DNA from: Microbispora sp. H11081
GTDB lineage: Bacteria > Actinomycetota > Actinomycetes > Streptosporangiales > Streptosporangiaceae
Assembly: GCF_012999535.1 (NCBI RefSeq)
Contig: NZ_JABBWV010000002.1
Coordinates: forward strand, 868,001 to 932,000
DNA: 64,000 nt
Direction of reading: 5' to 3'
Shown: piece after piece, positions 25,171 to 48,510 of the stretch
How positions within the stretch are numbered: the stretch's first letter is position 1
How the letters are laid out: the number at the start of each line of letters is the position of its first letter
The notes under the pieces: generated by a model
Databases searched by the model: none
What the model saw: only the letters and a program-made list of their open reading frames with translations
Told to the model about the DNA's origin: nothing
Made by a program: the position numbers and the translations under genes

Positions 25171-25258
25171 CGGCCCCACAGACCTGGAGATGGCACCCTC
25201 CAGCAACCGCAATATCCGGTATCGCCAAGTGGCAACAAGCGTGGCGGCGCGCGCCTTG

Positions 25259-25279
25259 CCTGACCTCCCCCCAGTCAGG
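25259..25279 (+). promoter_or_regulatory. Hairpin next to the ThuA/GSDH ribosome site
   Basis: CCTGAC (25259-25264) can pair with GTCAGG (25274-25279). The right arm overlaps the AGGAAGG Shine-Dalgarno of the gene at 25290, so folding could limit translation. It is short and may be chance. Confidence 0.3.
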
Positions 25280-25289
25280 AAGGTTTTTC

Positions 25290-29246: not shown

Positions 29247-29285
29247 CGAACCCGTCCGTACAGCGGCAAGAGAGAGAAGACACTC

Positions 29286-32574: not shown

Positions 32575-33384
32575 GTGACGGCACTTCGGACCGTCACAGT
32601 CGACGGCTCTCCCGTCCACGTCCTGGAGAGCGGCACCGGGCCCGCGGTGCTGATGCTGCACGGCTCCGGACCCGGTACGACCGGATCCGGCGCCTGGGCG
32701 GCGACGGCGCAGGCGCTGGGCACCTCCTGGCGCCTGGTCGCTCCTGACCAGGCGGGGTTCGGCCGCACACCGATCCCGGCCGGCTCCAGGGGTGGGCTCC
32801 GGCTGTGGACGGAGCAGGCCGCGGGCCTGATGGACGCTCTCGGTGTCGAGCGCTACGCCGTGGTGGGCCACTCCATGGGTGGTGCCGTGGCGCTGGCGCT
32901 GGCGGCCGCGCGCCCCGAGCAGGTCACCCATGTCGTGGCGGTCTCGACGATGGGCGCCCCCGGGGCGCCGCTGTCCGCCGACCTCGACGCGGTCTGGGCC
33001 GCCCCCGCCGGCCATCTCGGGGCACGAGACATGCTGGGTCGCCTCGTCTTCGACCAGTCGCTCGTGACCGAGTCGGCCGTCGCCGCCCGTGCGGCCGCGA
33101 TGCAGGAGGGAGCGGCCGCGTACGCGTCGTTGTTCCCTCCGCCCAGGGCACGGTGGGCCGACGACCTCACCCTCTCGGCGGAAACGCTGGCAGGGATCCG
33201 CGCGCCCGTGCTGCTCGTCCACGGCGCCGAGGACCGAGTCACCCCGCTCGGGACGGCGGCCCTGCCCCTGCTGGAACACCTGGCCGATGTTCGTCTGCAC
33301 GTGTTCGGCCGGTGCGGGCACGTGCCGGCACTCGAGCACCCGCAGGACTTCAGGCGGCTCCTGTCGTGCTTCCTCGGCCGGTGA
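32575..33384 (+). CDS. Alpha/beta hydrolase (meta-cleavage-product hydrolase-like)
   Basis: Encodes 269 residues. The oxyanion segment LMLHGSGPGTTGSGAW resembles meta-cleavage product (HMS/HOPDA) hydrolases. The triad is visible: Ser100 in VVGHSMGGA, Asp in LLVHGAEDRVTPL, and His in FGRCGHVPALEHP. GTG start at 32575, 19 bp after the DJ-1 stop, with no strong SD, so coupling is likely. The substrate is unknown; a C-C or ester hydrolase is possible. Confidence 0.88.
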   Translation: MTALRTVTVDGSPVHVLESGTGPAVLMLHGSGPGTTGSGAWAATAQALGTSWRLVAPDQAGFGRTPIPAGSRGGLRLWTEQAAGLMDALGVERYAVVGHSMGGAVALALAAARPEQVTHVVAVSTMGAPGAPLSADLDAVWAAPAGHLGARDMLGRLVFDQSLVTESAVAARAAAMQEGAAAYASLFPPPRARWADDLTLSAETLAGIRAPVLLVHGAEDRVTPLGTAALPLLEHLADVRLHVFGRCGHVPALEHPQDFRRLLSCFLGR

Positions 33385-33427
33385 CGAAGTCGCCGATCGC
33401 CGCGACAGGCCGCAGCGCCTGCTCAAG

Positions 33428-33660
33428 GTGATCAGCAGTCGGCGCCCTCCCCGAGACCCGAGCCATGACGAGGCGGTGGCCGAGGTCACCGCCCGACATG
33501 GTCGCATCGACGTCCTCCTGATCAACGCCGATGTGGCCAGGCCGGTGCCGTGGAGGAACCGGCGGGGCCGAGCAGCGGACCGGGTGAGGTCCGCTGCTCG
33601 GCCCCGCCGCGCTGACCCGCGCCGCCCTCCCCCGCCTGCCGAACGCCGGAGTCGGGGCCG
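33428..33660 (+). pseudogene. Short-chain dehydrogenase (SDR) debris
   Basis: One frame reads AVAEVTARHGRIDVLLINADVARP (split by me at 20 residues or fewer when quoted: EVTARHGRIDVLLINADVA), the SDR NNAG region with the NNAG itself altered to INAD. A second frame from about 33609 reads ALTRAALPRLPNAGV, the SDR helix that normally follows about 40 residues later. The catalytic YxxxK part is absent and a terminator hairpin separates the two pieces. The gene is dead. Confidence 0.6.
33561..33608 (+). terminator. Very strong hairpin terminator upstream of the RiPP operon
   Basis: Two perfect 21-bp arms (33561-33581 and 33588-33608, left arm starting GGCGGGGCCGAGC) flank the 6-nt loop GGGTGA. No T-tract follows, as is common in high-GC actinomycetes. 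It insulates the RiPP operon from the hydrolase/DJ-1 transcript. Confidence 0.7.
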
Positions 33661-33704
33661 GGATCCTACACGGAAAGGGCTGCACAAAAAAGATCAACAC
33701 ATAC

Positions 33705-33735
33705 TTTACTTAATTGTCATTCGATCTTAATATCG
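33705..33735 (+). promoter_or_regulatory. Promoter of the thiopeptide-type operon with AT-rich near-palindrome
   Basis: In a conspicuously AT-rich block (about 33684-33741), TTTACT (33705-33710) and TAATAT (33728-33733) are 17 bp apart and fit a -35/-10 pair. Transcription would then start at or next to the ATG at 33742, giving a leaderless mRNA. The near-palindrome CGATCTTAATATCG (33722-33735) covers the -10 box and may bind a further regulator. Confidence 0.5.
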
Positions 33736-33741
33736 AAAACT

Positions 33742-35682
33742 ATGGGAGCGCTCCCACACGCCGATACGGCGATGCGGCCGCGATTGCGGGACGACGTTCG
33801 GTTCGTCGAATGCCCCGAGGGGGTGTACGTCCACAGCGACTACGGATCGTGCACGCTGCGGGGGCGTCAGGCGTACGCCTGGCTGAGCAGGCTGGCTCCG
33901 GTGCTGACCGGACGGCACAGCCTGGCGGAGCTGACCGCGCAGTTGCCGGACGACAAGCGCGACATGGTCGAGGGCCTGGTGGGCCGGCTGGCGGAGCAGC
34001 GGTTCGTCGTCGACGCCCGGCAGGTGCGGCCCCACGGCCTGACCGAGGCCGAGTTGCGCACGTACGCGGAGGAGATCGCCTTTATCGGCTACGTGCTCGA
34101 CTCCCCCGAGTGGCGGTTCGAGCGGCTCCGCCGCTCCCGGCTGATCCTCGCGGGCGACGGTCCACTGCTGGTGGCGCTCCTTGAGGCGTGCGCCGGGTCG
34201 GGCTGGCAGCGGATCACCGTCATATGCCCCGATACGGAGGCGGTCGCCCAGGCCGCGGACCGCGCCCGCCGCGATCCGGATCAGGAGATACACGCCATTT
34301 CCGCCGAGGACCAGCACCGCGCCCTCACCCGGGACGCGGACGTCGTCCTCCACATCGGCACGGACATCGACACCCTCGTGACGAGCGCCCGCGCCTGCGA
34401 GGCGGCCGGAGTCGTCCTGGGGCAGGCCCTCGTCCGCCCCGCGGAGGTGTGGCTCGGCCAGGTCGGCAGGCCCTCGGCGACGGCTGCCGAGTCGGGCTGG
34501 CACCGGCTGGCCGCCCTGCCCGCCGCGACCCCGCCCCACTCCGGCGAGGACTGGCTGACGGGCCCGGTGCCCGCGGTGGTGGCCTCCATGCTGGCCCTGG
34601 CCTGTTTCTCCCACCTGACCGGCCTCGACGCCGTCGGCACGAGCCAGAAGCTCCAGCTCACCCGCGTCGATCTGCGCAACCTCGACACCGTCCCGCACCG
34701 GTTCGTCCCCCATCCCCGCGCGGTCGCCCGTACGGCCGTCCCGCGCGCCGAGGCGGTGCTGGACACGGTGCGGTCACTGTCGGCGGGCGTCTCGGTCGAC
34801 GCGGGGGAACTGCTCGACCGGACGAAGGACGTGGTCGACTCCCGGCTGGGCATCCTCGGCATGCTGGACGAACAAGGACTGGCGCAGACCCCGCTGTCCG
34901 TCTGCCTGGCGACCGTCTCCGACCCGTTCGGGGCGCTGCCCCGCTGGGCACCGCCTCCGCGGGTCGCCGGGTGGGGCGAGGACCGGCGGACGGCACGGCT
35001 GCGCTGCCTGCTCGCCGCGCTCGCCACGTACGGCGTGCTCGCCGCCGGGCCGGCCGGACGCGCCGACGGGGAGGACGTCCTGTGGGGGGTCGAACTGCCG
35101 GACGGCCGGCCGCGCCCGGTGCCCGCGGCCGCCCTGCGCCTCACCGGGGCCGGGGCACTCCAGGCCGCCGACGGCGCGGGGGCGGGGTTGAGCTGGGCCG
35201 AGGCGGTCGCCGCCGGGCTGCGGACCCACTGCGAAACCCTGCTGGCCGCGCGCCTGCGGCAGGACCCGGCGGCGGGCGTGCCGGTCGATCTCACCGCCGG
35301 CGCGCTGGAGCGGCAGCTCACGCTGGCCGGCGAGCGACCGGACGTGCGCGACCACACATCCGTCCTCGGCGTGCCCGCCCTGTCTTTCAGCGTTCCCGGC
35401 GAGCCGGTCCTCGTGTCGGCCGCGGCCACCGCACCGGCCGCGCTGCGGGACGGACTGGAACGGCTGCTGCTGCGCTGGCAGTCCCGGGCCGAAGGGCAGA
35501 GCGCCTACGCCGCGGCCCGTCCCCTCTGGGCACCCGAAGGGGACCCCGCTGAGGCCGTGCGGTTGATGGCGGGCGCGTTGTGCGCGGCCGGCAGGGTGCC
35601 GGTCGCGGTGCCGCTCGGCGGTGATCCCGAGGCTTCGCGGCTGCTTCCCTACGTCACACAGGTCGTGCTCCTTGAGGGCTGA
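33742..35682 (+). CDS. Thiopeptide-type Ocin-ThiF-like protein (E1-like partner of YcaO)
   Basis: Encodes 646 residues. Residues about 10-110 look like the winged-helix/RRE region that grips leader peptides (YGSCTLRGRQAYAWLSRLAP). About 115-260 is an E1/ThiF-like Rossmann part with degenerate nucleotide loop (LILAGDGPLLVALLEACAGS). The remainder resembles the TbtF-type partner proteins of thiopeptide azole synthetases. It is expected to recruit the precursor to the YcaO enzyme encoded next. The ATG at 33742 has no SD and fits the leaderless promoter; Met11 (33772) is an alternative start that would place the operator in the leader. Confidence 0.8.
   Translation: MGALPHADTAMRPRLRDDVRFVECPEGVYVHSDYGSCTLRGRQAYAWLSRLAPVLTGRHSLAELTAQLPDDKRDMVEGLVGRLAEQRFVVDARQVRPHGLTEAELRTYAEEIAFIGYVLDSPEWRFERLRRSRLILAGDGPLLVALLEACAGSGWQRITVICPDTEAVAQAADRARRDPDQEIHAISAEDQHRALTRDADVVLHIGTDIDTLVTSARACEAAGVVLGQALVRPAEVWLGQVGRPSATAAESGWHRLAALPAATPPHSGEDWLTGPVPAVVASMLALACFSHLTGLDAVGTSQKLQLTRVDLRNLDTVPHRFVPHPRAVARTAVPRAEAVLDTVRSLSAGVSVDAGELLDRTKDVVDSRLGILGMLDEQGLAQTPLSVCLATVSDPFGALPRWAPPPRVAGWGEDRRTARLRCLLAALATYGVLAAGPAGRADGEDVLWGVELPDGRPRPVPAAALRLTGAGALQAADGAGAGLSWAEAVAAGLRTHCETLLAARLRQDPAAGVPVDLTAGALERQLTLAGERPDVRDHTSVLGVPALSFSVPGEPVLVSAAATAPAALRDGLERLLLRWQSRAEGQSAYAAARPLWAPEGDPAEAVRLMAGALCAAGRVPVAVPLGGDPEASRLLPYVTQVVLLEG
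33743..33756. promoter_or_regulatory. CebR/LacI-type operator TGGGAGCGCTCCCA
   Basis: This is a perfect 14-bp palindrome, identical to the published CebR box of Streptomyces. It overlaps the start codon of the first RiPP gene, just downstream of the predicted -10 box. A LacI-family repressor bound here would block initiation. No LacI gene lies in the window, so the regulator must act from elsewhere. Confidence 0.65.
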
Positions 35683-37645
35683 GAACGCGCCGGCGAGCGC
35701 GCTCACCGAGTCACCGTCCTTCGTGACCGTGCTGGGAACCGGCAGGCTGGGCGCCGCGATCCGCGCGGCCGTCACGGCTCGGGGACCCGCCGGTCCTGGC
35801 GGCGGAGCGATCGTCGTCGCGAGCGACGCCGACGACGCCCGGCCGTATCCCTCCGTGGCCCGCCGCGCGGCCGAGCGGGGTGTGCCGTGGCTGCCGGTCC
35901 GGGTCGACGCCGGCTGGGTGCTGGTCGGCCCGGCGGCACGCCCGCCGCTGCCGGGCTGCCCGACCTGCGTCGAGCGGCGGCGCAGGGGCAACCGGCTCGA
36001 CGCGCTGGGGCGTGACGCGCTGCGTGAGCGGTACGGCACGGAGCTGGACACCCGGCCCTGCGCCCTCCTCACGCCGCTCGTCGCGAATGCGGTCGCGGCA
36101 CTGGTGGCCGACGAGGTGGACCGGCTGCGGCGCGACCCCGCGTCCGCGCGGACCACGGGCGCGCTGCTCAGGATGCACGTGCCGACCGGGATGGTGCGCC
36201 GCCATCCGTTCCTGCCCGACCCGCTCTGCCCGGACTGCGGTGACCGGCCGGACGACGGGCCCGGCGCCGGCCGCTACGTCCCCGCGCCCGCGCCCAAACC
36301 GCATCCGGGGGCGTTCAGGGTCGGCGGCATCAGCGGCAGGGCCGGGGAGCTGGAGGGGCGGTTCGTCGACGCAGAGACCGGAATCGTGCAGGCACTGGTC
36401 GCGGAGGAGCGCGGCGGCAGCGCCATGGCGGTCGCCCGGCTCAGCCCCGCGCGCACCACGCACGAGAGCCACCACGGGTACGGACGCAGCAACGACTTCG
36501 CCTCGGCGCGGGCGACCGCGGTCGCCGAGGCGCTGGAGCGGATCGCCGGCATCCATCCGCGCGGACGGCGGACCGTCGTGCGCGCCGCGTACGACGACGT
36601 CGCCGGCCATGCACTCGACCCGAGGACGCTGGGCCTCTACCCCGACGGCTGGTACGACCGGCCCGGCTTCTGGTTCACCCGCTTCCGGCCGGAGCGGCCC
36701 ACGTCGTGGGTGTGGGCGTACTCGTTCCAGCGGGACGAGCCGGTTCTGGTGCCGGAGAGCTACGCCTACTTCGGCCCTCGGCCGGAGGAGGACCGCGGGT
36801 TCGCCTACGAGTGCTCCAACGGGTGCGCCCTCGGCGGCCACCCCGCCGAGGCGATCCTGCACGGCCTGCTCGAGGTGGCCGAGCGGGACGCGTTCCTCAC
36901 CACGTGGTACGCCCGGATGCCCATCCCCCGCGTCGACCTGGCGTCGGCGTCCGACCGGCGCATCCCCATGATCGCCCAGCGCGTACGGGATCGGCTGGGC
37001 TACGAGGTGCACGCGTTCGCCGCCATGCTTGAGCAGCGGGTGCCGGTGTTCTGGGTGATGGCCGTCGAGGCGACCGGACGACCCGACCGGCCGCGGGCGC
37101 TGTGCGGAACCGCCGCCGATCTGACGCCCGAGCGTGCGCTGCGCCGGGCGCTCGACGACCTCGGCCCGATGCTGGCGGGGCACATCGAGAGGTACGACCC
37201 GGTGGAGGCGGCCAGGCTGGCGACCGACCCGGAGAAGGTGCGGCTCCTGGAGCACCATCCTCTGCTCTACGGTCACCCGGAGGCGTTCGGGCGGCTGGGC
37301 TTCCTGCCGGTCGACGGGCCCGCCCTGACGGTGGCGGAGGTCACGGCCCGGCTCGGCTGGCCGGAGCACGACGACCTCACCGCGGACCTCGCCGAACTGG
37401 CCGGGCGCTACCTGGCGAGCGGCCTCGACGTGATCGCCGTCGACATCACCTCCGCCGAGGCCCGGGCGGGCGGCTTCGCCGCCGCGAAGGTCATCGTGCC
37501 GGGGGCGATGCCGATGACGTTCGGGCACCGCTACCGGCGCGTCCACGGCCTGCCGCGGCTGCTGTCCCTGCCCCGGCTGCTCGGCTACCGGGACGACGAC
37601 CTGCGGCCCGAGGACCTCAACCCGCACCCCCATCCTTTCCCATGA
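35672..37645 (+). CDS. YcaO cyclodehydratase (TbtG-type) forming azolines
   Basis: Encodes about 657 residues. An N-terminal domain carries two CxxC pairs, CPTC near residue 97 and CPDC near 186, probably a structural zinc site. The YcaO domain follows from about 230 (YGRSNDFASARATAVAEALE is the ATP-binding region, then HGLLEVAERDAF). The C-terminus NPHPHPFP is the proline-rich tail that reaches into the active site of azoline-forming YcaO enzymes. It converts Cys (or Ser/Thr) of the precursor to azolines using ATP. The start is uncertain: TTG 35672 overlaps the previous stop by 11 bases; GTG codons at 35722 and 35728 are alternatives. Its stop overlaps the SagB ATG (ATGA). Confidence 0.9.
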   Translation: MRAENAPASALTESPSFVTVLGTGRLGAAIRAAVTARGPAGPGGGAIVVASDADDARPYPSVARRAAERGVPWLPVRVDAGWVLVGPAARPPLPGCPTCVERRRRGNRLDALGRDALRERYGTELDTRPCALLTPLVANAVAALVADEVDRLRRDPASARTTGALLRMHVPTGMVRRHPFLPDPLCPDCGDRPDDGPGAGRYVPAPAPKPHPGAFRVGGISGRAGELEGRFVDAETGIVQALVAEERGGSAMAVARLSPARTTHESHHGYGRSNDFASARATAVAEALERIAGIHPRGRRTVVRAAYDDVAGHALDPRTLGLYPDGWYDRPGFWFTRFRPERPTSWVWAYSFQRDEPVLVPESYAYFGPRPEEDRGFAYECSNGCALGGHPAEAILHGLLEVAERDAFLTTWYARMPIPRVDLASASDRRIPMIAQRVRDRLGYEVHAFAAMLEQRVPVFWVMAVEATGRPDRPRALCGTAADLTPERALRRALDDLGPMLAGHIERYDPVEAARLATDPEKVRLLEHHPLLYGHPEAFGRLGFLPVDGPALTVAEVTARLGWPEHDDLTADLAELAGRYLASGLDVIAVDITSAEARAGGFAAAKVIVPGAMPMTFGHRYRRVHGLPRLLSLPRLLGYRDDDLRPEDLNPHPHPFP

Positions 37646-39282
37646 CGCGCCCCATCGGCACCGACGAAGGAAGCGAGGCGGACCGGATGCACGGCAGCAC
37701 GGCGACGAGCGCGCCGGGTGACGCCACGCGCCGCTACCTGGCCGCGATGCGGGACCGGGGCCCGCTGTCGGTCGACTGGGCGAACGCCCCGACCCGGCAC
37801 AAGCGCTATCCGGGGGCCGAGCGCGTCGCCCTGCCCTGGGCCACCCGGGACGACACCCCACTCGGCCTGGTCGGCGAGTTGCTGCGGGAACTGCTCGGCA
37901 TGGCCAGGGTGGTGTGGTTCCATCCGATGGACGACGTCGGCGACCCGCTGGGGGAGCCGCCCATGTTCCTCCTCGGCCGCCCGGCGCCGTCGGGTGGCGG
38001 GCTCTACCCGATCGAGGCGTACGTCGTGGCCGGGGAGCGCCGCGTGCCCGGCCTGCCCGCCGCCCTGTACCACTACGACCCCGTCCACCACGCGCTGGAA
38101 CGCGTGCGGGAGGGCGACCACGCCCCGGCTCTCGCCGGCCTGGTCGCGGACGCGCGGGACCCGGACGTCACGGTCGTGCTGTCGGCGGTGTTCTGGCGGT
38201 CGATGTTCAAGTACGGCGACTTCGGCTACCGCCTGATGTGCCAGGAGACCGGTGTGCTCATCGCCCAGGCGCTCGCCGTCGCCGGACGGCTGCGCGTGGC
38301 GGGCCGGGCGCACCTGCGGTTCCCGGACGAGGAGGTCGACCGCCTGCTGGGGCTCGACGGCGCGCGGGAGGCCGCGATGGCCGTGCTCACGTTCACGCTG
38401 CCCCGAGCGCACGACTCCCTCGCCGGCCGCCGGGAAGCCCCGGGGACCGGGGAGGCGATCGCGGAGGCGGCCGAGGAGACGGTCGCGGAGAGCATGCCGC
38501 TCCCCCTGCCGATGCCCGACGGCCCGGCCGCCGCGCTGCACCGGACGAGTAAGGCCGGCGGCGCCGCGTCATCGTCCTCCTCCACCCGGCTGAGGCCCGC
38601 CCCTCCCCCGGGGATCGGCCCGGCCATCCCCGTCCCTGAGCCGGAGCCCGTGTGCCTGGCGGCGGGGGTGCCGCGCCGCGCGTCCCCGCCGGCCGGTTAC
38701 CGCCCGGTCCCCCTGCGGGCGGGTGAGCTCGGCGCCGTCCTGGCTGCCGCGGGCGGTGGTTACCCCGCCGACCTGCCCGGGGCCGGGACGGGACTCGCGG
38801 CGACCGCCTTGTGCCTGCTGGCCCTGCGGGTGCACGGGCTGCCCCCCGGCGCGTACTGGTATGACCACGACCGGCGGGTGCTGCACGAGGCCGCCGGCCG
38901 GGACCCGGTGCCCGCGATGGCGGCCGGGCGCCTGCTGGGCAACACCCGGGCCGCCCTGCGCGGAGCGGCCGCCGTACTCGTGCCGATGGGCGATCCCCTG
39001 GCGGGCGCCGGCGTCTTCGGCGACCGCTGGTATCGCCTTCAGCAGGCCGAGGCGGGCCTGGCCGTCCAGCGGGCGGCGCTGGCCGCCGCCGCCCTCGGCC
39101 TGGCCGCGCGCATCCACTCCGACGGCGCGAACGACACCACCGACGAGGTGCTCGGGATCGCCGGAACTCCGCTGCGGAGCCTGTCCTTCCTGGCGATGGG
39201 CACGCCCCTGACCAGCGGGCCCCTCGTGGCCCGCGGGATCCCGGCCGGTTCGCACGAGGAGGTGAGGCCCGCCACAGGATGA
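37642..39282 (+). CDS. SagB/TbtE-type azoline dehydrogenase (FMN nitroreductase family)
   Basis: Encodes 546 residues. The first half (about 1-270) has the SagB opening HKRYPGAERVALPW, RPAPSGGGLYPIEAYVV and a RSMFKYGDFGYRLMCQETGV helix typical of FMN dehydrogenases that oxidise azolines to azoles. A low-complexity linker (about 295-340, many Pro/Ser) joins a second nitroreductase-like half (GLAATALCLLALRVHGLPPG, then FGDRWYRLQQAEAGL). Duplicate-type architecture is seen in thiopeptide dehydrogenases. ATG overlaps the YcaO stop. Presence of this gene means azoles, not just azolines, are expected. Confidence 0.85.
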   Translation: MTRPIGTDEGSEADRMHGSTATSAPGDATRRYLAAMRDRGPLSVDWANAPTRHKRYPGAERVALPWATRDDTPLGLVGELLRELLGMARVVWFHPMDDVGDPLGEPPMFLLGRPAPSGGGLYPIEAYVVAGERRVPGLPAALYHYDPVHHALERVREGDHAPALAGLVADARDPDVTVVLSAVFWRSMFKYGDFGYRLMCQETGVLIAQALAVAGRLRVAGRAHLRFPDEEVDRLLGLDGAREAAMAVLTFTLPRAHDSLAGRREAPGTGEAIAEAAEETVAESMPLPLPMPDGPAAALHRTSKAGGAASSSSSTRLRPAPPPGIGPAIPVPEPEPVCLAAGVPRRASPPAGYRPVPLRAGELGAVLAAAGGGYPADLPGAGTGLAATALCLLALRVHGLPPGAYWYDHDRRVLHEAAGRDPVPAMAAGRLLGNTRAALRGAAAVLVPMGDPLAGAGVFGDRWYRLQQAEAGLAVQRAALAAAALGLAARIHSDGANDTTDEVLGIAGTPLRSLSFLAMGTPLTSGPLVARGIPAGSHEEVRPATG

Positions 39283-39307
39283 CGCCGTGCCCTCCGGCGC
39301 ACGGCCC

Positions 39308-39337
39308 GTACGGCAAGCGGAAAACAGTACGGCAAGC
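39308..39337. promoter_or_regulatory. Direct repeat GTACGGCAAGC x2 before the precursor gene
   Basis: The undecamer occurs at 39308-39318 and 39327-39337, 19 bp apart, in the 85-bp gap upstream of the precursor. It could be a regulator site for an internal promoter. Spacing near two helical turns supports this weakly. Confidence 0.4.
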
Positions 39338-39367
39338 AGTGACATTTCCCGAAAAAGGAGACGCACC

Positions 39368-39547
39368 ATGTCCAACGACAGCCTGAAGCTCGACCTGCGC
39401 GGCCTCGACGTCGACTCCATCGACGTGCTGTCCGCCGACTCCATCGTGGCGGAGGGCCACGGCGCCGTCGAGACGGGCGCCTCCTCCGCCGCCGGCTACT
39501 GCTCCTCCTACCTGTCGGCCACCAGCTGCTGGACTCCCGAGGCGTAA
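39368..39547 (+). CDS. Thiopeptide-like precursor peptide (59 residues)
   Basis: Starts at ATG 39368 with AAGGAG nine bases before it. Residues 1-38 form an acidic, Leu/Asp-rich leader (KLDLRGLDVDSIDVLSADS) that ends GHGAVETGA, very like the GHGMTEVGA end of thiomuracin/GE2270-type leaders. Cleavage after Ala38 would leave a 21-residue core beginning Ser39-Ser40 and containing GYCSSYLSATSCW then TPEA. It has six Ser, two Thr and only two Cys (Cys45, Cys54), unlike Cys-rich canonical thiopeptides. Modification by the encoded enzymes should give two thiazoles, several dehydroalanines and a pyridine-type crosslink. It is followed by a hairpin, suggesting a more abundant short transcript. Confidence 0.88.
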   Translation: MSNDSLKLDLRGLDVDSIDVLSADSIVAEGHGAVETGASSAAGYCSSYLSATSCWTPEA

Positions 39548-39628
39548 GCCACGCGGCGCCCGGGCCGCGAGCCTCGGGCGGCGATCAGGACCGGTGACCC
39601 CGACGGGCCGCCGGTGAGATGAGCAGCA

Positions 39629-39665
39629 GGGCCGAGGGCGCCCACGGCACGGGCGCCCTCGGCCC
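39629..39665 (+). terminator. Attenuator-like hairpin between precursor and LanB genes
   Basis: Perfect 15-bp arms, GGGCCGAGGGCGCCC at 39629-39643 and its complement at 39651-39665, with a 7-nt loop. It lies 82 bp after the precursor stop and ends 15 bp before the AGGAG of the LanB gene. Partial termination here would raise precursor over enzyme levels. Confidence 0.6.
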
Positions 39666-39694
39666 CCGGCGACCCACACGAGGAGCGCGTTCCT

Positions 39695-42319
39695 TTGACT
39701 CATCTGGCGCACGCCGCCCCCGTCACCGAGAGCGGCGGTCCCGCACGGCTCGCCGGTCGAGATTATGCCGTGTCGCCGATCTTCGCGGTACGCGTCGCGG
39801 GCCTGCCCCTGGCCGGGCTCGACCGGCTGCGCTGCACCCGCACCTGGGAGGTCGTGGACGAGCTCGCGGACGTCTCGGCGTGGCTGCGGCGGGAGGGCGC
39901 CGACCTGTCCGGCCCGCTGCACGACGTGATCGGCGGAACGGGGGCGGGCGCCCGCAAGGCGGGGCTGGTCGCCCTGCGGCGCGCGGTGTTCACCGGACGC
40001 CGGCCGTCCGGCCGGGCCGTCTCCGCCGAGGTGATGGCCGCTCTCCCCCGGGACCTGGCCGAGCGGGTCAGGGAGTGGACCGCACGCAGGGACCACGCCG
40101 ACACGCTGCGTGCCGCGCTGCCCGCCCTGCTGGCGGAGGAGACCCGGGAGAAGACGGCGTTGCTGCGCGAGGTGGTGGCCGACCCCGCCTTCCGGCGCGG
40201 ACTCGCCCTGGGCAGCCCGGTGCTGGCCGCCCGCCTCGACGCGTGGCTCGCGGGTCCGGCGGACCGCCCGCCGGACCGGCAGGAGCTGCTGCGCCTGGCC
40301 AGGTACGTCGCCAGGGCGACGGTCAAGACCAGCCCGTACGCCACGTTCACCCTCAGCGGCCTCGGCCAGTGGACGGCGGGCGGGCCCGCGGTGCGAAGCG
40401 GCGGCGAGCCGTCCTGGCAGGTCGTCGCCGAGCTCGACCGGGCGGTCCTGCGCCCGCTGTGGTCGGCGCTCACGCGGCACCGGGCCGTGCGCGAGCGGGC
40501 GCGGCTGCGGGTCAACCCGTCGGCGGCCGACGACGGGAGCCGGATCTGGTTCCTCGGTCCCGGAGCCGACGAGCCGCTGTCGAGCGTGGCCGCCGGCCCC
40601 GCCGTGCGCCAGGCCCTCGACTGGGTCCGGGGGCGGCCCTTCCCCACCCTCGTCGATGCGCCGGGGATCGAGCCGCTGGTCGACGCGGGGCTGCTGGAGC
40701 TGGTCCCGCCGTACGACGAGCAGGCGGCCGACCCGGTGAGCCTGCTGGCGTCCTGGCTCGCCGAGGGCCGGGAGGCGGCGCCGCACGCGGCGGCGGTCGC
40801 CAGGATCGCCGGAGCAGTGCGGGAGGCCGCCCATGACGCCTCACCCCGCGTGCCGCACGAGGGGACCGCGGATCCCGCCGCCGTAGCGCGGGAGGCGCTG
40901 GTGGAGGTGCTGCCGGCCGGGTCGTCGCTGCCCGACAGGAACCTGCTCTGGCACAGCGCCGTCATCCCCGGCGTAGCGGGACGGCTGAACGCGACGGCCT
41001 GGCGGCCCGTGTTCGACGACCTCGACGCCGTACGCCGCGTGCTGGGCCTGTTCGATCCCGACCTGCCCGTCAAGATCGCGGCCACCGCCTTCTTCCTCGA
41101 TCTGCACGGCCCAGGCGCCCGGATCCCCGCCCTGGACTTCTACCGCCGGATCCACTCCGGAGCGCCGGGGGCGGGCGGCGCGCTGCTGCGCGGGATGCTG
41201 CGCAACCCCGTCGCCGTCCCCCGCGCGGTGCCCGGAGAGGAGCCCCCGCCCGGCCTGCGCGAGCTGTCCGAGCTGCGGCGGGGGTTCTGGGAGCTGATGG
41301 GGGCCGGGCCCTCGGCGCGGGAGGCGACGGTCCAGGTCGCCGCCGCCCGCCTGGCCGAGGTGGCCGCCTCGTGGCCGCGCTTCGTCCAGCCACCCGGGTC
41401 GGTCTGCTGTTACCTGCAGGCCGTGTCCGACGGGCCGGACGGGGTGCGCGCCGTCGTCAACTCGGTCTCCGCCGGGTACGGCCGGGGGCTGTCGCGGCTG
41501 CACCGGCTGGTCGCCCTGGCCGGAGGGGAGGTCCCGCCCGCCACGGAGCTGCGGGCCGACCAGGGTGACGTGCTGGTGGCGGAGTGCCGTGGACTCGTGG
41601 GCGGCGGGCTCAACGTGCGCCCCGCGACGGCCGACCTCGCCCTCGACTACCCCTTCGCGCCGGGGGACGACGACCTGCCGCCCCTCGCGCCCGCGCGTCT
41701 GGCGGTCGGCTACGACGCCGGGCGCGACCGGCTGGCGCTCCTCGACGGACAGGGCCGCGCCGTCCGGCCGGTCCACCTGGGGATGACCGCCCAGCACTGG
41801 CTGCCGCCTTGGCTGCAGTTCCTCGTACGGACCTTCGGCGAGCCGTCCACGGCCATGGTGCCGGGCTGGGTCTTCCGTACGCGCGGCGACGTGCCGGCCG
41901 AGGGCGAGGTGGAGCGGTGGCCGCGGATGGACGTCGGGCGGGTGACGCTCGCCCGTGCGGCCTGGCGGCTGCGGGCCGGCGACTTTCCCGTGCCCGCCAA
42001 GGGCGAAGGCGAGGCCGCCTACCTGCCGCGGCTCGCCGGGTGGCTGGCGACGCACGGCGTTCCCCGCCGCTTCTTCGCCCGGGTGGTCGGCCTCGGCGAC
42101 GGCCTCCTGGTCGGGCTGCTGAGCAAGGACCGCAAGCCGATGTACGTCGACGTCACCGACACGCTGCTGCTGGCCGGGTTCGTGCGCTCACTGCGCGACC
42201 CCGGATCGCTCGTGGTGCTGGAGGAGGCCCTGCCCGACCCGGCCGACGCCCCCCTGTACGGCACAGGGAGACGGGTCACCGAGTACGTCGTCCAGCTGTC
42301 GGCGAGGCCGGTCCGATGA
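39695..42319 (+). CDS. LanB glutamylation protein (TbtB-type lantibiotic dehydratase, N-terminal part)
   Basis: Encodes 874 residues. The family signature ARATVKTSPYATFTLSGLG (about 205-224) and the repeated RxNPS-type strands (RLRVNPSAADDGSRIW) belong to the Lant_dehydr_N glutamylation domain, which adds glutamate from Glu-tRNA to Ser/Thr of the precursor. The elimination domain is a separate protein encoded next, the split arrangement typical of thiopeptides and goadsporin-type pathways. TTG start at 39695 with AGGAG nine bases before. Its stop overlaps the next ATG (ATGA). Confidence 0.88.
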   Translation: MTHLAHAAPVTESGGPARLAGRDYAVSPIFAVRVAGLPLAGLDRLRCTRTWEVVDELADVSAWLRREGADLSGPLHDVIGGTGAGARKAGLVALRRAVFTGRRPSGRAVSAEVMAALPRDLAERVREWTARRDHADTLRAALPALLAEETREKTALLREVVADPAFRRGLALGSPVLAARLDAWLAGPADRPPDRQELLRLARYVARATVKTSPYATFTLSGLGQWTAGGPAVRSGGEPSWQVVAELDRAVLRPLWSALTRHRAVRERARLRVNPSAADDGSRIWFLGPGADEPLSSVAAGPAVRQALDWVRGRPFPTLVDAPGIEPLVDAGLLELVPPYDEQAADPVSLLASWLAEGREAAPHAAAVARIAGAVREAAHDASPRVPHEGTADPAAVAREALVEVLPAGSSLPDRNLLWHSAVIPGVAGRLNATAWRPVFDDLDAVRRVLGLFDPDLPVKIAATAFFLDLHGPGARIPALDFYRRIHSGAPGAGGALLRGMLRNPVAVPRAVPGEEPPPGLRELSELRRGFWELMGAGPSAREATVQVAAARLAEVAASWPRFVQPPGSVCCYLQAVSDGPDGVRAVVNSVSAGYGRGLSRLHRLVALAGGEVPPATELRADQGDVLVAECRGLVGGGLNVRPATADLALDYPFAPGDDDLPPLAPARLAVGYDAGRDRLALLDGQGRAVRPVHLGMTAQHWLPPWLQFLVRTFGEPSTAMVPGWVFRTRGDVPAEGEVERWPRMDVGRVTLARAAWRLRAGDFPVPAKGEGEAAYLPRLAGWLATHGVPRRFFARVVGLGDGLLVGLLSKDRKPMYVDVTDTLLLAGFVRSLRDPGSLVVLEEALPDPADAPLYGTGRRVTEYVVQLSARPVR

Positions 42320-43350
42320 CGGCGACGCGGACGGATGACGGCGAGCAGGATGGAGGCCGCTGGGTCAGCGCCCACCTGTTCCACTTCGGCGACCTCGACG
42401 CCCTGGTCACCGGTGTCGTGGACCCGGTCGTACGGGAACTGGTCGCGGACGGTACCGCGCGTGGCCGTTTCTTCCTCCGCTACTGGGAGGGCGGCCAGCA
42501 TGTGCGGCTGCGGCTTGAGGTGCCCGACCCCTCGCGGGTCTCCCGCGTTCACCGCCTCGTGCGCGAGCGGGCGGCGGCCCACTTCGCCGCGCACCCCTCT
42601 CCCCCGGTCGACCTGGAGGCGTACCGCGCGTTCGCGGCGACCGTCGCCCGGGGCGAGCGGCGCGAGCGGTACGACGACCGCCTGCGCCCCGCCGACTCGG
42701 TGGAGTTCGTCGCCTACCGGCCCGAGCACGCGGCCTACGGTGACGCGGCCTGCGTCGAGGCCGCCGAGCGGCACTTCACGGTGTCGAGCACGCTCGCGCT
42801 CGACGTGCTGAGAGCGGGAGCGCTGATGGAGCAGCGCGCCGCCATCGGGCTCGCCGCGCTCACCATCGCGCTGGCGGCCTGCGAGCCCGACCTGCTCACC
42901 GCCGCGCGCGCGTTCGCGGAGACCCTCGGGGAGGCGGACCGGCGGCCCGAGATTCCCGGCGGGGAGGACGACTGGCTGCGCCGCGGCGACGCCGTGCTCG
43001 CCCAGACCCGCGCGCTGTGGGATCTGCCGAACCGAGCTGATCCGCATGACTGCGACGGCGGCCTGCTCGGCATGTGGGCGTCGTCGGTGCGCGCCCTGCG
43101 CGACGACCTCGACGCGCTGCACGCCGCAGGCAGGTGCGGGCCGTCCGACTCGGGCTCGCCGCACGCCTTCCTCGCGACCGCAGTGCCGCCCGAGCGTCGC
43201 ACGGTGCCGCTGATCCTGCTGCGATGCGCCCATCTGTTCCACAACCGGCTGGGGCTGCGCGCGGGAACCGAGCATCACGTGTCCTTCCTCGTCGCCCGCG
43301 CCCTCACCGACCTCGCCGGCCTGGCCGGCTCCCGGAGGTGGTCCCCCTGA
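42316..43350 (+). CDS. LanB elimination protein (TbtC-type, SpaB_C family)
   Basis: Encodes 344 residues. The start region VSAHLFHFGDLDALV and RFFLRYWEGGQHVRLRLEV is the standard SpaB_C opening with the basic residues that handle glutamylated substrates. The end LLRCAHLFHNRLGLRAGTEH keeps the conserved His/Asn-Arg segment. It removes glutamate to leave dehydroalanine/dehydrobutyrine. Assigned to elimination rather than cycloaddition because it is closer to canonical SpaB_C and comes straight after the glutamylation protein. The assignment between this and the next gene is inference. Confidence 0.78.
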   Translation: MTATRTDDGEQDGGRWVSAHLFHFGDLDALVTGVVDPVVRELVADGTARGRFFLRYWEGGQHVRLRLEVPDPSRVSRVHRLVRERAAAHFAAHPSPPVDLEAYRAFAATVARGERRERYDDRLRPADSVEFVAYRPEHAAYGDAACVEAAERHFTVSSTLALDVLRAGALMEQRAAIGLAALTIALAACEPDLLTAARAFAETLGEADRRPEIPGGEDDWLRRGDAVLAQTRALWDLPNRADPHDCDGGLLGMWASSVRALRDDLDALHAAGRCGPSDSGSPHAFLATAVPPERRTVPLILLRCAHLFHNRLGLRAGTEHHVSFLVARALTDLAGLAGSRRWSP

Positions 43351-44501
43351 CCGGCTCGCCCACGCAGGACGCCCCGATCTGGCACTGCGTCCACGTCTAC
43401 TACCACGCCCCCGACAAGGACGGGCTGCTGCTCGACGCCGTACGCCCCCTGCTGGAAGGACTTCGCGGCCAGGTGGAGGCGGCGTACGTGCTGCGGCACT
43501 GGAGGCAGGGCCCCCACGTGCGGATCAACGTCAAGGCGACGCCCCGGCTGTGGGAGGAGGTCGTGCGCCCGCGCGTCGACCAGGTCGTCGGGGCCTACCT
43601 GCGCGAGCATCCCTCCACGACCGTGCTCGACCCGGACGAGAGTCTGACGCGGCACCGACTGCTCGCCGTACGCGAGCAGGAGCACGGGCCGCTCACCCCG
43701 TGGCCACCCGACAACTCCATCCGCGACGCGCCGTACGACTCCCGGCGGCACGTCCTCGGCAGCGACGAGGCGGTAGACCTGCTCACCTCGTTCTACGCCG
43801 AGAGCACGCCACTGCTGTTCGCCATGCTCGACCATGTCCGCGGGGGTGCTGACAGCAAACTGGGCCTGGCGCTGACCCTCATGCTGACCGTCGCGCACAC
43901 CTCACACCCCATCACCCGCAGCTACCTCTCCTACCGGATGCACGCGGAGGGCTTCATCACCTGGGCGGCCGACCCCGAGGCCACCCGGGCCGCCTTCGAG
44001 CGCGACTTCCGTGAGCGGCGCGAGGCACTGACAGCGCGAGTGCGGGACGTCGTCGCCGCGCTCGACGACCCGGCTCACCCGGCCGCCCCGCCCGCGCCGT
44101 TCGCGCGGGACTGGGCGGCGCTGCTGGAGCGGTACCGCGCCCGGGCGGGCGCCCTGATCGACGACGGCCGGCTGGTCCAGCCGACGACCCGGCCGGGCGA
44201 GACGTTCGAGGCGAAACTCGGCGACCTGCCGGTGCCGCAGCGCGAACCGAACGAGCTCCAGCGCCTGATCTTCGACAGTCAGGCCTACCACGAGGCGGTC
44301 TTCGCCGACCCCGGCTTCCTCCGCTATCGGGTGCTGCTCAACTACACCTACCTGCACCTCACCCGGATGGGCCTGACCCCGCTCGACAGGTTCCGCATGT
44401 GCCACCTGCTGGCCGACGCGGTCGAGGACGTCTACGGCCTGTCCGCCCTCGACGCGCTCCGGCGGTTCGCCGCCGCGAAGGAGACTCGCCCCGGAGGGTG
44501 A
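43338..44501 (+). CDS. Pyridine-synthase-type protein (TbtD/TclM-like, formal [4+2] cycloaddition)
   Basis: Encodes about 387 residues, homologous in outline to SpaB_C but divergent: HCVHVYYHAPDKDGLLLDAV at the start, RHWRQGPHVRINVKA, PWPPDNSIRDAPYDSR, and the C-terminal LNYTYLHLTRMGLTPLDRF segment. These are features I associate with thiopeptide pyridine synthases, which join two dehydroalanines and expel the leader. The start is unclear: GTG 43338 overlaps the previous gene by 13 bases and its GGAG is too close; a CTG at 43347 would form a CTGA overlap with GGAGG eight bases upstream. It is the last gene of the operon. Confidence 0.75.
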   Translation: MVPLTGSPTQDAPIWHCVHVYYHAPDKDGLLLDAVRPLLEGLRGQVEAAYVLRHWRQGPHVRINVKATPRLWEEVVRPRVDQVVGAYLREHPSTTVLDPDESLTRHRLLAVREQEHGPLTPWPPDNSIRDAPYDSRRHVLGSDEAVDLLTSFYAESTPLLFAMLDHVRGGADSKLGLALTLMLTVAHTSHPITRSYLSYRMHAEGFITWAADPEATRAAFERDFRERREALTARVRDVVAALDDPAHPAAPPAPFARDWAALLERYRARAGALIDDGRLVQPTTRPGETFEAKLGDLPVPQREPNELQRLIFDSQAYHEAVFADPGFLRYRVLLNYTYLHLTRMGLTPLDRFRMCHLLADAVEDVYGLSALDALRRFAAAKETRPGG

Positions 44502-44516
44502 CACCGGTGAAGGTCG

Positions 44517-44533
44517 CGACTCCACACGAGTCG
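44517..44533 (+). terminator. Short hairpin after the RiPP operon
   Basis: CGACTC and GAGTCG with a 5-nt loop lie 16 bp past the last RiPP stop. This is a weak candidate; the operon also faces the convergent gene ending at 44640. Confidence 0.3.
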
Positions 44534-44639
44534 AGCGCAGGTCAAGACCCCGGGGTGGCCCTACCGTCGACCGTCGGGCGTGGCGAGGAAAGGGATGCGG
44601 CGCGGCTCAGTGCGGCCCAGCGCGGTCGACCGCTCGGCG

Positions 44640-47114
44640 TCAGGCACCCGGTCTGGGCAGTTCCTCCTCGATCGCGGCGAACAGCTCCCGGGCGGTCCTG
44701 ATCCTCGTCGCCCCTTCGGCCGATGCGACCTCGGCCATCGTCTCGGCCTCACCGTCCTCCGCACTGTCCTTGTCTCGGGCCTCCTCTTTCTTCGGGGCGG
44801 TCTCCTCGCCTCGAACCGGGACCGCATCGGGCTTGGTGACCGCTTCGCCGCTCTCGGCCGGAACCACCCCGGCTATCGTGTTGGCGATCTTCTTCGTCAG
44901 CGACACGTCGATGCTCTTCGCGAGGTTCTCGCTGAGACCGGCCGCCGCGAACACCACCCGCAACTCCGCCCGCGACACCCCGTCGAAGTCACCGAACCAG
45001 TTGTTGGGCAGCCGTCCGCAGTGCCGGTGCAGCAGGGCCAGTCGCGGCAGGCCGTACCTGCGCAGGGTCGGCGTGCGCTCCGCCAGCAGAAGTGTCCGCA
45101 GGATCAGCGCCTCGATGTCGCGGCCCTGGGCAGCCAGGTCTCGGCCCGTCCACCACTGGCCCCGCAGCGCCACCCAGATCGCCTGCGGCCAAGCCGACGG
45201 CCCCCGGTCCCGCTTCGCCCGGGACGGCACCCGCGGCCTGGACGGCCGGCTGATGACCCGGCCCGCAGCCGCGTCCCACAACTCGGCGAACCGGGCGGCC
45301 AGGTCCCTGTCCCGCTCCACCCATTTCTCGGTCGGCAGGTCCGAGGCGCGCATCAGCTCCAGCTCCCGGGTGGACGAGAGGCGCAAATATCGTTCAAGCT
45401 CCCGGAATCTGCGGCGGAACCACCTCGACCCCATCCGCCGCGACCACATCGAGTACGCCCACGAGCCGACCACGCCCAGGGCCAGCGCCGCGAGGATACC
45501 CCAGGCGCCGACCCCCAGCATTCCGCCCGACATGAAGTACGCGTCGACCGGCCAGTGGTGGACCTCCGTGAAGAAGTCCATGAACGTCAGCACGGTGAAA
45601 GCACCCACTGTGATGCTCAGCCCGAACCCGGCCCGCTGCAACACGTCGAGCTCCCGGACCCGTCGTTCGTCGAAGGCGAACGTCATGGAGTCGAGCAGGT
45701 TCTTGTACTGCTCGGTCGCCCGGTCCGCCACGTCTCCCGCCCGCTCTCCGAACCGCTTGTGGTCGCGGAGGTGGCCGGCGTCGTCCAGCGCCTCGCGCAC
45801 CCCCCGGCCCGCCCAGCCGAGCGTCGCCGCGAACCGTTCGTCGGCCAGATGCTCCAGCCGCTCGAGCCGGCTCACCCGTTCGTCGACGTGACTGGCGACG
45901 TCGGCGAGGTCCGCCATGCCCTGCAGCAACGTCAGGTGGATCAGCTCCACGGCCCGATGCGCCCGGTTCAACCTGGTCCAGCGCCGGATCGGCAGATGGG
46001 TGGCCACCCCGTCCCACAGTGTCCCCATCGTGCGCGCGGCATGCTGGTAGATCATGGCGTGCTCACGCCAGACCTCCAGCTGGTCGCGGATGTCGTTGCC
46101 GACGGCGGCCAGTGCCTCCAGCGTGAGCAGCCCCACCACCGCCGACCGTAACCGCCCGCTCACGACAGTTCCGTTCACATGCGCCGTGTCCGGCAGCACC
46201 ACATAGCACTCACGCACCGTCCGGCTGTGCGGCCGGTCAGAGCCCTCGGAGGCGTCCGCGCCGCTCAGGAGGAGATCGGCTTCGTCGTCGCCGACCGGTC
46301 GCCGGGCGGAGACCACACAGACGTCAGCGCTGCTCAGGGGTGGAGTGACGTCGTCGTCGCCGACCAGCCGCCGCAGCAGGGAACGCCTCGTCTCCCTGCG
46401 GGACGGGTCGGCCCCGTGCATCGCCTCGTACAGTTCGCGCGCCGAGTGCAATTCCTGGGAGCCGCGGACGACATCGCTTTCCCTGGCGATCCAGAACTCC
46501 GGCGCCTCGTACTCCCGGACGGTGTCCTGCTCCAGCTTCCTGAAGTGGTCCCCCACGTGCCTGCGCGCCTGCCGCTCGTAGTCCACGAACCATTCGTGCC
46601 AGGTCGGGGCGCCCTCCTCCGGTAACGCCCAGCCCCCGGCTGCCTCTGGCACCCATACCGGGTCCCCGACCCAGAAGCTGACGCCGATGAACATCGTCCG
46701 CGAACTCCAGCGGTTGCGGAACTGGATGTCGAACAGGATCCACGGCTTTCTGCCCTCCCCCACCTGCCGGAACGGTTCCACCTGATGGTCGGGGTGGATG
46801 AGGATGTGGTACCACTCAAGGCGGTCGGCCACGTCCAGGTAACCGATCTCGATCTCCCGGTTCGCCTGGTCGATCTTCGCGTTGCCCTCGGCGAGCTTGG
46901 TCAGGGCGTCGGCTCCGGTCCGCCACCTGACGTTGTCGAGCAGGCCGTCCGGTGAGGTCGCCAGCCACACCCTGGGCTCCGTGCCGTCGCTCGATTCGAG
47001 CAGTTTCCTGATGATGCGGTCCTCCGCCTCACCGCCGCCCTGCTGCCACTTGCGCCATTCGCGCCAGTATGTGACTAGATAGACCAGCTGTAAGGATGAT
47101 TCCGAATTCTGCAT
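44640..47114 (-). CDS. Large two-TM protein of unknown function
   Basis: Encodes 824 residues. The N-terminal 500 residues look cytosolic and Trp-rich (for example LVTYWREWRKWQQGGGE and PTWHEWFVDYERQARRHVG). Residues about 350-500 are helical and partly coiled. Two TM helices follow at about 508-530 (GFGLSITVGAFTVLTFMDFF) and 545-568 (GAWGILAALALGVVGSWAYS), then a basic region and an acidic Lys/Glu-rich tail. The layout (large soluble head, helical stalk, two late TM helices) is CorA-like in topology, but no GxN signature is seen. I do not recognise the family. It is convergent with the RiPP operon; a link to self-protection is possible but unsupported. Confidence 0.7.
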   Translation of the reverse strand: MQNSESSLQLVYLVTYWREWRKWQQGGGEAEDRIIRKLLESSDGTEPRVWLATSPDGLLDNVRWRTGADALTKLAEGNAKIDQANREIEIGYLDVADRLEWYHILIHPDHQVEPFRQVGEGRKPWILFDIQFRNRWSSRTMFIGVSFWVGDPVWVPEAAGGWALPEEGAPTWHEWFVDYERQARRHVGDHFRKLEQDTVREYEAPEFWIARESDVVRGSQELHSARELYEAMHGADPSRRETRRSLLRRLVGDDDVTPPLSSADVCVVSARRPVGDDEADLLLSGADASEGSDRPHSRTVRECYVVLPDTAHVNGTVVSGRLRSAVVGLLTLEALAAVGNDIRDQLEVWREHAMIYQHAARTMGTLWDGVATHLPIRRWTRLNRAHRAVELIHLTLLQGMADLADVASHVDERVSRLERLEHLADERFAATLGWAGRGVREALDDAGHLRDHKRFGERAGDVADRATEQYKNLLDSMTFAFDERRVRELDVLQRAGFGLSITVGAFTVLTFMDFFTEVHHWPVDAYFMSGGMLGVGAWGILAALALGVVGSWAYSMWSRRMGSRWFRRRFRELERYLRLSSTRELELMRASDLPTEKWVERDRDLAARFAELWDAAAGRVISRPSRPRVPSRAKRDRGPSAWPQAIWVALRGQWWTGRDLAAQGRDIEALILRTLLLAERTPTLRRYGLPRLALLHRHCGRLPNNWFGDFDGVSRAELRVVFAAAGLSENLAKSIDVSLTKKIANTIAGVVPAESGEAVTKPDAVPVRGEETAPKKEEARDKDSAEDGEAETMAEVASAEGATRIRTARELFAAIEEELPRPGA

Positions 47115-48450: not shown

Positions 48451-48510
48451 GGCCATCGATGATGGCGACCTGTCCGAACAGGACGGGCCACCGGCCCACC
48501 AGGAGTGACC

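Follow-up and report, generated by a model that had tools for sequence, protein, structure and literature searches.

The soil bacterium Microbispora sp. H11081 (Streptosporangiaceae) carries a complete seven-gene thiopeptide set, in the order F-G-E-A-B-C-D, at positions 33742–44501 of a 64,000-nt stretch of contig NZ_JABBWV010000002.1 (forward strand, 868,001 to 932,000). This whole stretch is referred to as the window, and all coordinates are positions within it unless a locus or genome id is given. A complete thiopeptide operon is by itself ordinary in actinomycetes; what appears unusual here, judging from the DNA, is a predicted 41-membered, azole-poor ring in a clade of diverse ring sizes, together with an exact operator for the cellulose-utilisation repressor CebR at the start of the operon. 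The explanation favored, with a probability of roughly two in three, is that a thiopeptide operon of a distinct clade makes a 41-membered product under the control of CebR and cello-oligosaccharides.

All seven genes are intact open frames on the plus strand, and their assignment in an earlier note as counterparts of TbtF, TbtG, TbtE, TbtA, TbtB, TbtC, and TbtD is borne out by family and PDB matches. F (33742–35682) is an ocin-ThiF-like, leader-binding protein of the TbtF/PbtF type; it scores 106.3 bits (1.3e-30) against the ocin_ThiF_like model TIGR03693, far under the model cut-off of 561.9, and its N-terminus matches the 86-residue PbtF structure 8t19 (8.9e-11), which we take to be the leader-binding RiPP (ribosomally synthesized and post-translationally modified peptide) recognition element domain. 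G (35672–37645, C-terminus ...NPHPHPFP) is a SagD-type YcaO cyclodehydratase of the TbtG type (TIGR03604, 322.3 bits, cut-off 219.25), whose start is either TTG 35672 or GTG 35723, and E (37642–39282) is a SagB-type azoline dehydrogenase of the TbtE type (TIGR03605, 131 bits, cut-off 78.4). An azole-forming set of leader-binding protein, YcaO, and dehydrogenase is thus in place, F being recognized by the PbtF structure match beside the sub-cut-off model. A (39368–39547) encodes a 59-residue precursor with a leader (39368–39481) and the core SSAAGYCSSYLSATSCWTPEA (39482–39544); the match to the thiomuracin/GE37468-family model is weak (19.6 bits, below the cut-off of 29), and the peptide has the acidic leader, the Ser1 directly after it, and the second Ser followed by Cys of a thiopeptide precursor. 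The split LanB dehydratase consists of the glutamylation protein B (39695–42319; Lant_dehydr_N, TbtB type, TTG start with GAGGAG upstream) and the glutamate elimination protein C (42316–43350; PF14028, TbtC type). B gave no match in the NCBIfam search, and its best PDB match (6.5e-114) is 6ec7, an entry named 'Lantibiotic dehydratase domain protein' that is presumably TbtB. C matches Lant_dehydr_C/thiopep_ocin (TIGR03891, 81.3 bits, cut-off 48.45) and has no PDB match under 0.001. The last gene, D (43338–44501), supplies the pyridine synthase, or [4+2] cyclase, that marks the thiopeptide pathway: it scores 502.6 bits against the TbtD/PbtD model NF045556 (cut-off 325) and 8.6e-61 against the TbtD structure 5wa3, so that the last protein, whose possible placement outside the pyridine synthases had been raised as a test, falls inside them. 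Tyr338 of D is the equivalent of Tyr319 of TbtD, a residue reported to matter for pyridine formation (PMC12018205, in excerpt), and is kept.

With all families present, the set is complete for azole formation, Ser/Thr dehydration, and pyridine formation, as the earlier note had proposed. Its further statement that most joints overlap is fair without being certain, for three or four of the six do: G/E and B/C overlap by 4 nt and C/D by 13 nt (with GTG 43338), and F and G overlap, by 11 nt, only with TTG 35672 as the start codon. Gaps separate A from both of its neighbors, 85 nt after E and 147 nt before B. The family scores, together with a gene order kept in other genomes, exclude a chance origin, and it is virtually certain that the operon encodes a thiopeptide pathway.

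A phylogeny of 35 D proteins, from which the partial L059 and the C outgroup were left out, places the window D in a 22-row clade (support 100/99) that is apart from TbtD of the thiomuracin locus L051, from the pyritide-type D of L052–L055, and from L060/L061; support is low (83/87) for the fork uniting the TbtD group with this clade, and long branches were flagged. At a limit of E <= 0.001, a profile of A recovered 20 of 341 genomes of the family, 16 of them strongly (E <= 1.5e-29) and four weakly. The 16 strong genomes and the metagenome-assembled genome (MAG) L010 of Catenulispora, whose core is of the same type, are called the main clade below, and the four weak ones the sisters. The profile matched 2 of 15 genomes of the window's genus and 3 of 394 genomes of a class sample, all of the same family. 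A broader precursor profile recovered 1 of 396 genomes of a phylum sample, which is the genome of the window itself, and 41 of the 341 family genomes, 21 of them beyond the first set; among ten loci inspected there, nine encode other thiopeptide-like precursors, including the thiomuracin and GE2270 cores, and the tenth, L131, has no precursor by the filter used. The full F-G-E-A-B-C-D order is kept in 14 of the 16 main-clade family genomes, the remaining two (G246 and G223) being cut by contig ends. Two of the sisters, G288 and G300, retain this order; in G106, two copies of A precede F, and the set of G304 is divided between contig C3 (A-B-C-D) and contig C2 (F-G-E). Scanning genome contigs with D as the query gave 13 loci, nine of which match all seven genes in order, the stretches of L006–L008 beginning inside F; the others are L009 (cut by its contig), L013 (full set with a divergent A), L014 (D only), and L015 (C and D). 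These data point to a thiopeptide operon that is self-contained and belongs to a separate clade, apparently centered on Streptosporangiaceae, and refine the earlier picture in two respects: D belongs to a clade apart from that of thiomuracin, and the product predicted from the core is unlike thiomuracin.

The core SSAAGYCSSYLSATSCWTPEA has two Cys residues, Cys7 and Cys16. Main-clade cores are of the types SSxxGYCSSYL[S/T]A[T/M]SCW[A/T]PE, its Catenulispora variant with N12, SSAMGYCSSYMQANSCWAPEA, and SSYSPYCSSYMQACSCW[V/A]PEQ, the last of which has a third Cys. Ser1, Ser2, Cys7, Ser8, Ser9, Ser15, Cys16, and Trp17 are invariant in all of them, and position 12 varies among S, T, N, and Q, so it cannot be a universal ring partner. 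Ser1 stands in the Gly-Ala-Ser (GAS) position that aligns with Ser1 of TbtA. Four sister cores, being poor in Ser, are informative: SCGHEFTRPCGSCGAPHDGELDEF and SCGAFCICATISCQAPVAE contain Ser1 and Ser12 only, SCGHREVGFPHCGSCRAPYDGEHDES contains Ser1, Ser14, and a final Ser, and SCGGIVNSCIKAEFDELA, beside an operon remnant, contains Ser1 and Ser8. In all four, the inner Ser is followed by Cys, the same as Ser15 in the window core. Since these cores have, besides Ser1, a single internal Ser, in a Ser-Cys motif, the ring assignment is forced there. The two G106 cores SSVSSAPSCIKAEFDDPI and SSSTSSFGSCLKAEFDDPI also have Ser-Cys along with several other Ser, and decide nothing. With ring size calculated as 3(n-1)-1 atoms, a formula that fits pyritide A1 (Ser1/Ser6, 14 members) and lactazole (Ser1/Ser12, 32 members) as described in excerpts of PMC9247985 and PMC7210931, closure of Ser1 and Ser15 gives 41 members, and the four informative sisters give 32, 32, 38, and 20.

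A 41-membered pyridine macrocycle closed between Ser1 and Ser15 is thus the best prediction for the window core and a probable one. All known thiopeptides were stated in 2020 to have 26–35 members (PMC7210931, in excerpt), and no later statement was found; a literature search for a 41-membered thiopeptide returned no paper among those covered, and neither did one for four fragments of the core. The precursor clade may have been described earlier. Given that the enzymes of the lactazole (Laz) and pyritide (Mro) pathways can form rings as large as 62 and 68 members in vitro (excerpts of PMC7210931 and PMC9247985), a 41-membered ring is feasible. The predicted product has [M+H]+ 2030.77, minus 18.011 for each further dehydration, two thiazoles being assumed; for zero to six such dehydrations, [M+2H]2+ would run from 1015.89 down to 961.86. 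Applied to a 19-residue lactazole core, the mass formula gave 897.27; with the core shortened to 16 residues and two extra dehydroalanines (Dha), it gave 710.208, 701.203, and 692.197, the values in PMC7210931 being 710.20, 701.20, and 692.20. Because the core was adjusted after a miss, this agreement is a weak check.

The second unusual part is the palindrome TGGGAGCGCTCCCA at 33743–33756, which overlaps the F start codon from its second base on (+2 to +15) and is identical to the published consensus for CebR, also named CelR (PMC5332605 and PMC4898821, both in excerpt). The operon thereby has a perfect 14-bp site at its promoter, as expected of a CebR-regulon member by that consensus (PMC5332605). 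Fifteen main-clade genomes have a readable F start, and in 14 of them the box lies at the identical base (G000, G003, G268, G211, G219, G236, G129, G131, G206, G226, G232, G370, G245, and G017); G246 and G223 are outside the count because their stretches end before F. Columns +1 to +15 are all identical in these 14 genomes, third codon positions included. The flanks vary, with one invariant column between -60 and -1 and none between +16 and +45. A second perfect box lies within F of Nonomuraea soli (L107/L011), ~1800 nt past the F start.

The genome of the window contains 15 copies of the box pattern and none of a reversed control. Nine of the 14 other copies adjoin genes for cellulose or sugar use: glycoside hydrolases GH9, GH6 (two), and GH48, a pair resembling polysaccharide lyase PL8 or Cip1, an aldose epimerase, a LacI regulator, and a solute-binding protein with two boxes. 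Close to the other five are an E1 dehydrogenase/non-ribosomal peptide synthetase (NRPS) pair, a TauD/NRPS pair, a gene with an ATPase domain, MscL, and an unassigned open reading frame (ORF). A box thus accompanies the LacI gene L151 itself, whose best PDB match is 5ysz (6.3e-71), presumably CelR of Thermobifida fusca; the name of that entry gives only the family. An operator at the start of the operon, with other copies at cellulase and sugar genes, predicts that production is inducible by cello-oligosaccharides. Perfect boxes at L140 (G000:C12:365431) and L147 (G000:C23:292895) adjoin genes with NRPS condensation domains, and G003 and G011 have boxes with a spacing similar to that around 365431; the CebR switch may operate in other metabolite clusters too.

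Upstream of the box, the pair TTTACT-17 nt-TAATAT (33705–33733, plus strand), the best of a search over a fixed range, resembles a promoter and ends 8 nt before the F ATG. Comparable pairs occur in all 14 box genomes, with 8–9 of 12 consensus bases, a spacing of 16–18 nt, and an end 6–8 nt before the ATG. Of 2800 positions drawn at random, 3 reached an equal score in controls run afterwards, as did 6 of 765 ATGs drawn at random and 100 of 2800 shuffles of the upstream stretches. A sigma-70 scan of 33400–44900 reported no promoter, the pair falling under its stricter threshold. The short distance to the ATG suggests that the F transcript is probably leaderless and that the repressor would bind over its start. 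Control of the operon by CebR is considered very probable. The earlier note had spoken of one regulated unit; this can be refined to a concrete candidate switch, the predicted CebR operator, and an internal hairpin, both unmentioned there.

On this basis, a sequence of events may be proposed. F would bind the leader of A, G and E would convert Cys7 and Cys16 to thiazoles, and B and C would dehydrate Ser1, Ser15, and some of the other Ser and Thr residues. D would then join Dha1 and Dha15 by a formal [4+2] cycloaddition, forming the pyridine and expelling the leader as an amide, to give a 41-membered macrocycle with a thiazole-Trp-x-Pro-Glu tail. A LacI repressor of the CebR/CelR type, bound where transcription and translation start, would hold the operon off until released by cello-oligosaccharides. 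With repression lifted in this way, the peptide would be made during cellulose digestion.

Several observations speak against this interpretation. Ser2, Ser8, and Ser9 are as invariant as Ser1 and Ser15, and conservation alone leaves closure between Ser2 and Ser15 (38 members) or at Ser8 or Ser9 (20 or 23) in play. A codon comparison of six A genes found no silent excess, the silent:non-silent counts being 82:97 in the leader and 41:50 in the core. The box is absent at F of the Catenulispora MAG, which belongs to the main clade but lies outside the family, and of the four sister genomes, which means that CebR control does not extend to the whole clade; nor is the box found at F in the thiomuracin locus L051, L046, or L048. 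The 14 box genomes are related rather than independent, and, with the box lying over codons of F, part of the conservation could be at the protein level. The box was found in each of the 22 relatives searched, in 1–20 copies and whether or not they have the operon, which is what a cellulose regulon would show; the reversed control occurred once in 3 of the 22. Some thiopeptide clusters carry a transporter, a resistance gene, or a pathway regulator, and none of the three is common to the 19 flanks compared.

The alternative that survives best, although unlikely, is that the pathway makes a thiopeptide whose ring D closes at other serines, S2–S15 (38 members), S1–S9 (23), or S1–S8 (20), resulting in another ring or a longer tail. 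The invariance of Ser2, Ser8, and Ser9 in the aligned main-clade cores would allow this, as would the many ring sizes that the pyritide and lactazole enzymes close in vitro (PMC9247985 and PMC7210931, in excerpt). Ser8 and Ser9, however, lack the following Ser-Cys-x-A-P tail in which the partner lies in those sisters with one internal Ser, and Ser1, in its GAS position, aligns with Ser1 of TbtA.

It is a little less likely again that the operon makes a conventional antibiotic like thiomuracin or GE2270, directed at the ribosome or EF-Tu, as the homologous core enzymes and the TbtD/PbtD score of D might suggest. Against this stand the two Cys residues of the core, compared with six in thiomuracin, the larger predicted ring, the separate D clade, and a resistance gene neither noticed among the scanned window genes nor common in the flanks. 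The ring of thiomuracin is closed between Ser1 and Ser10 and has 26 members. The L051 locus, which encodes the thiomuracin core SCNCFCYICCSCSSA, shares with the window homologs of all seven core genes, a split LanB, a TbtD-type synthase, and a Ser1 after a leader ending in GA; it differs in its order, with A-B-C-D before E-F-G, in its core, in having no CebR box, and in a D from another clade. On core composition and D clade, a thiomuracin-like product is rejected. PbtD and PbtF of GE2270 biosynthesis are close structural relatives of the window D and F, whereas the core SCNCVCGFCCSCSPSA in L135/L136, which we take to be that of GE2270, is Cys-rich and unlike that of the window; the comparison covers this core and the two structures. 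The leaders of L060/L061 resemble that of LazA, and the D proteins of these loci are only 28–29% identical to that of the window. Lactazole, also low in Cys, Ser, and Thr, has no antibacterial activity according to the available part of PMC7210931.

Lactazole resembles the window system also in its compact cluster, its larger ring of 32 members, and the Ser12-Cys13 at its ring junction, but LazF fuses dehydrogenase and elimination domains that are separate genes, E and C, in the window; lactazole being known here by description (PMC7210931, in excerpt), this difference rules out its type. Pyritide clusters have a TbtD-like synthase, lack azole genes and Cys, and yield rings of 14 and 17 members (PMC9247985, in excerpt). 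The presence of F, G, and E and of Cys7 and Cys16 in the core rules out a pyritide, the D proteins of the pyritide-type L052–L055 being ~41% identical to that of the window. These four clusters, with cores such as SGAWTSRTSWLV, include three from the window's own genus, and no F, G, or E match was found in the stretches fetched for them. Goadsporin-like linear azole peptides, which are made with a split LanB and YcaO but without a pyridine synthase (PMC4603692), are ruled out by the presence of D.

That the palindrome is bound by another LacI-family regulator, or is kept only as the MGALP protein start, leaving the operon outside cellulose control, would agree with the related operators that LacI-family regulators share, with the position of the box inside a coding frame, with the placement of L151 in the LacI family only, its CebR identity unproven, and with the Catenulispora MAG and sisters that have no box, yet it is improbable in view of the exact match to the CebR consensus, the 14 columns invariant in 14 genomes down to third codon positions beside flanking codons that vary, and the 9 of 14 other copies at cellulose or sugar genes.

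Thaxtomin is a non-ribosomal phytotoxin. Its cluster in Streptomyces scabies is likewise a specialized-metabolite cluster under CebR, but with imperfect boxes and an activator, TxtR (PMC5332605, in excerpt), in contrast to the RiPP operon of the window with its one perfect box at the start codon. Among the papers covered by the literature search, none pairs the whole words CebR and thiopeptide (the plural form was outside the search).

A hairpin with a 15-bp stem and a 7-nt loop, GGGCCGAGGGCGCCC-ACGGCAC-GGGCGCCCTCGGCCC, lies on the plus strand between A and B (39629–39665). A stem of 12–17 pairs, G-U allowed, occurs within 150 nt after A in 20 of 20 stretches, representing 19 distinct places because L013 and L080 are the same; the G106 precursors were left out of this survey. 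Such a stem was found in 33 of 1100 random 150-nt windows of the same loci and in 3 of 500 versions of the window's own gap shuffled base by base. In an alignment of the 11 of 20 hairpins with equal stem and loop lengths (six distinct rows), 3 of 14 pairs are changed on both sides, all three in one sequence, L077; 4 of 500 shuffles reach this number, and the signal is lost once the pairing is shifted. An Rfam search of 33000–45000 found nothing at gathering scores. The chances are about even that the hairpin acts as a partial terminator or stabilizer favoring the precursor mRNA, which would keep it above that of the enzymes.

If the favored explanation is true, natural thiopeptide rings extend past the 26–35 range stated in 2020 (PMC7210931, in excerpt), the clade provides a natural ring-size series for studying how pyridine synthases choose the second serine, a thiopeptide-type RiPP pathway is tied to the cellulose regulon, and an otherwise silent product could be switched on by cellobiose, cellulose, or deletion of cebR. 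More tentatively, and with slightly less than an even chance, there may exist in cellulose-degrading actinomycetes a clade of azole-poor thiopeptides made only during cellulose digestion, with CebR acting at a leaderless start. One enzyme family would close natural rings of ~20–41 members with the Ser-Cys tail as the landmark of the second serine, and the peptides might serve competition or signaling around cellulose rather than being classical ribosome poisons.

The earlier note had seen no tailoring genes, and this holds: none lies inside the operon, and no flank family is common across the genomes compared. In this comparison (606 ORFs of at least 70 aa passing a codon-composition filter, from 19 genomes or loci, four of them downstream only), the largest cluster reached 6 of 19, was scattered in position, and was not scanned for its family, and the second largest, that of the window's alpha/beta hydrolase, reached 4 of 19. 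With no cluster above 6 of 19, a traveling tailoring, export, or resistance gene is rejected for the flanks compared. The nitroreductase gene at 48505–49188 has a 53% identical homolog (L089:4442–5086) directly after D in G131 only, and is present in 2 of 19 flanks. The 824-aa protein encoded on the minus strand at 44640–47114, with apparent membrane segments by eye, has no Pfam or NCBIfam match and is absent from 30 relatives searched.

Partial operons occur in some relatives. In Thermocatellispora, a lone shortened D is found at L014 (on a contig shared with L050), and in Bailinhaonella, C and a D with an internal TAG are found at L015 (on a contig shared with L057), no other operon gene lying in that stretch. 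In the sister G106, fragments of F, E, and B surround the third precursor SCGGIVNSCIKAEFDELA at L100 (~16584–17878, G106:C52), ~33 kb from the intact operon, and are read as a decayed second copy. Upstream in the window, two DJ-1/PfpI genes (24319–24888 and 31986–32555) are identical at 568 of 570 bases, the identity extending 74 bases upstream and 7 downstream, and flank two ThuA-domain genes (24981–31328). The pair looks like a recent duplication or insertion, and the G003 stretch L085 has one PfpI copy, on the strand opposite to the operon.

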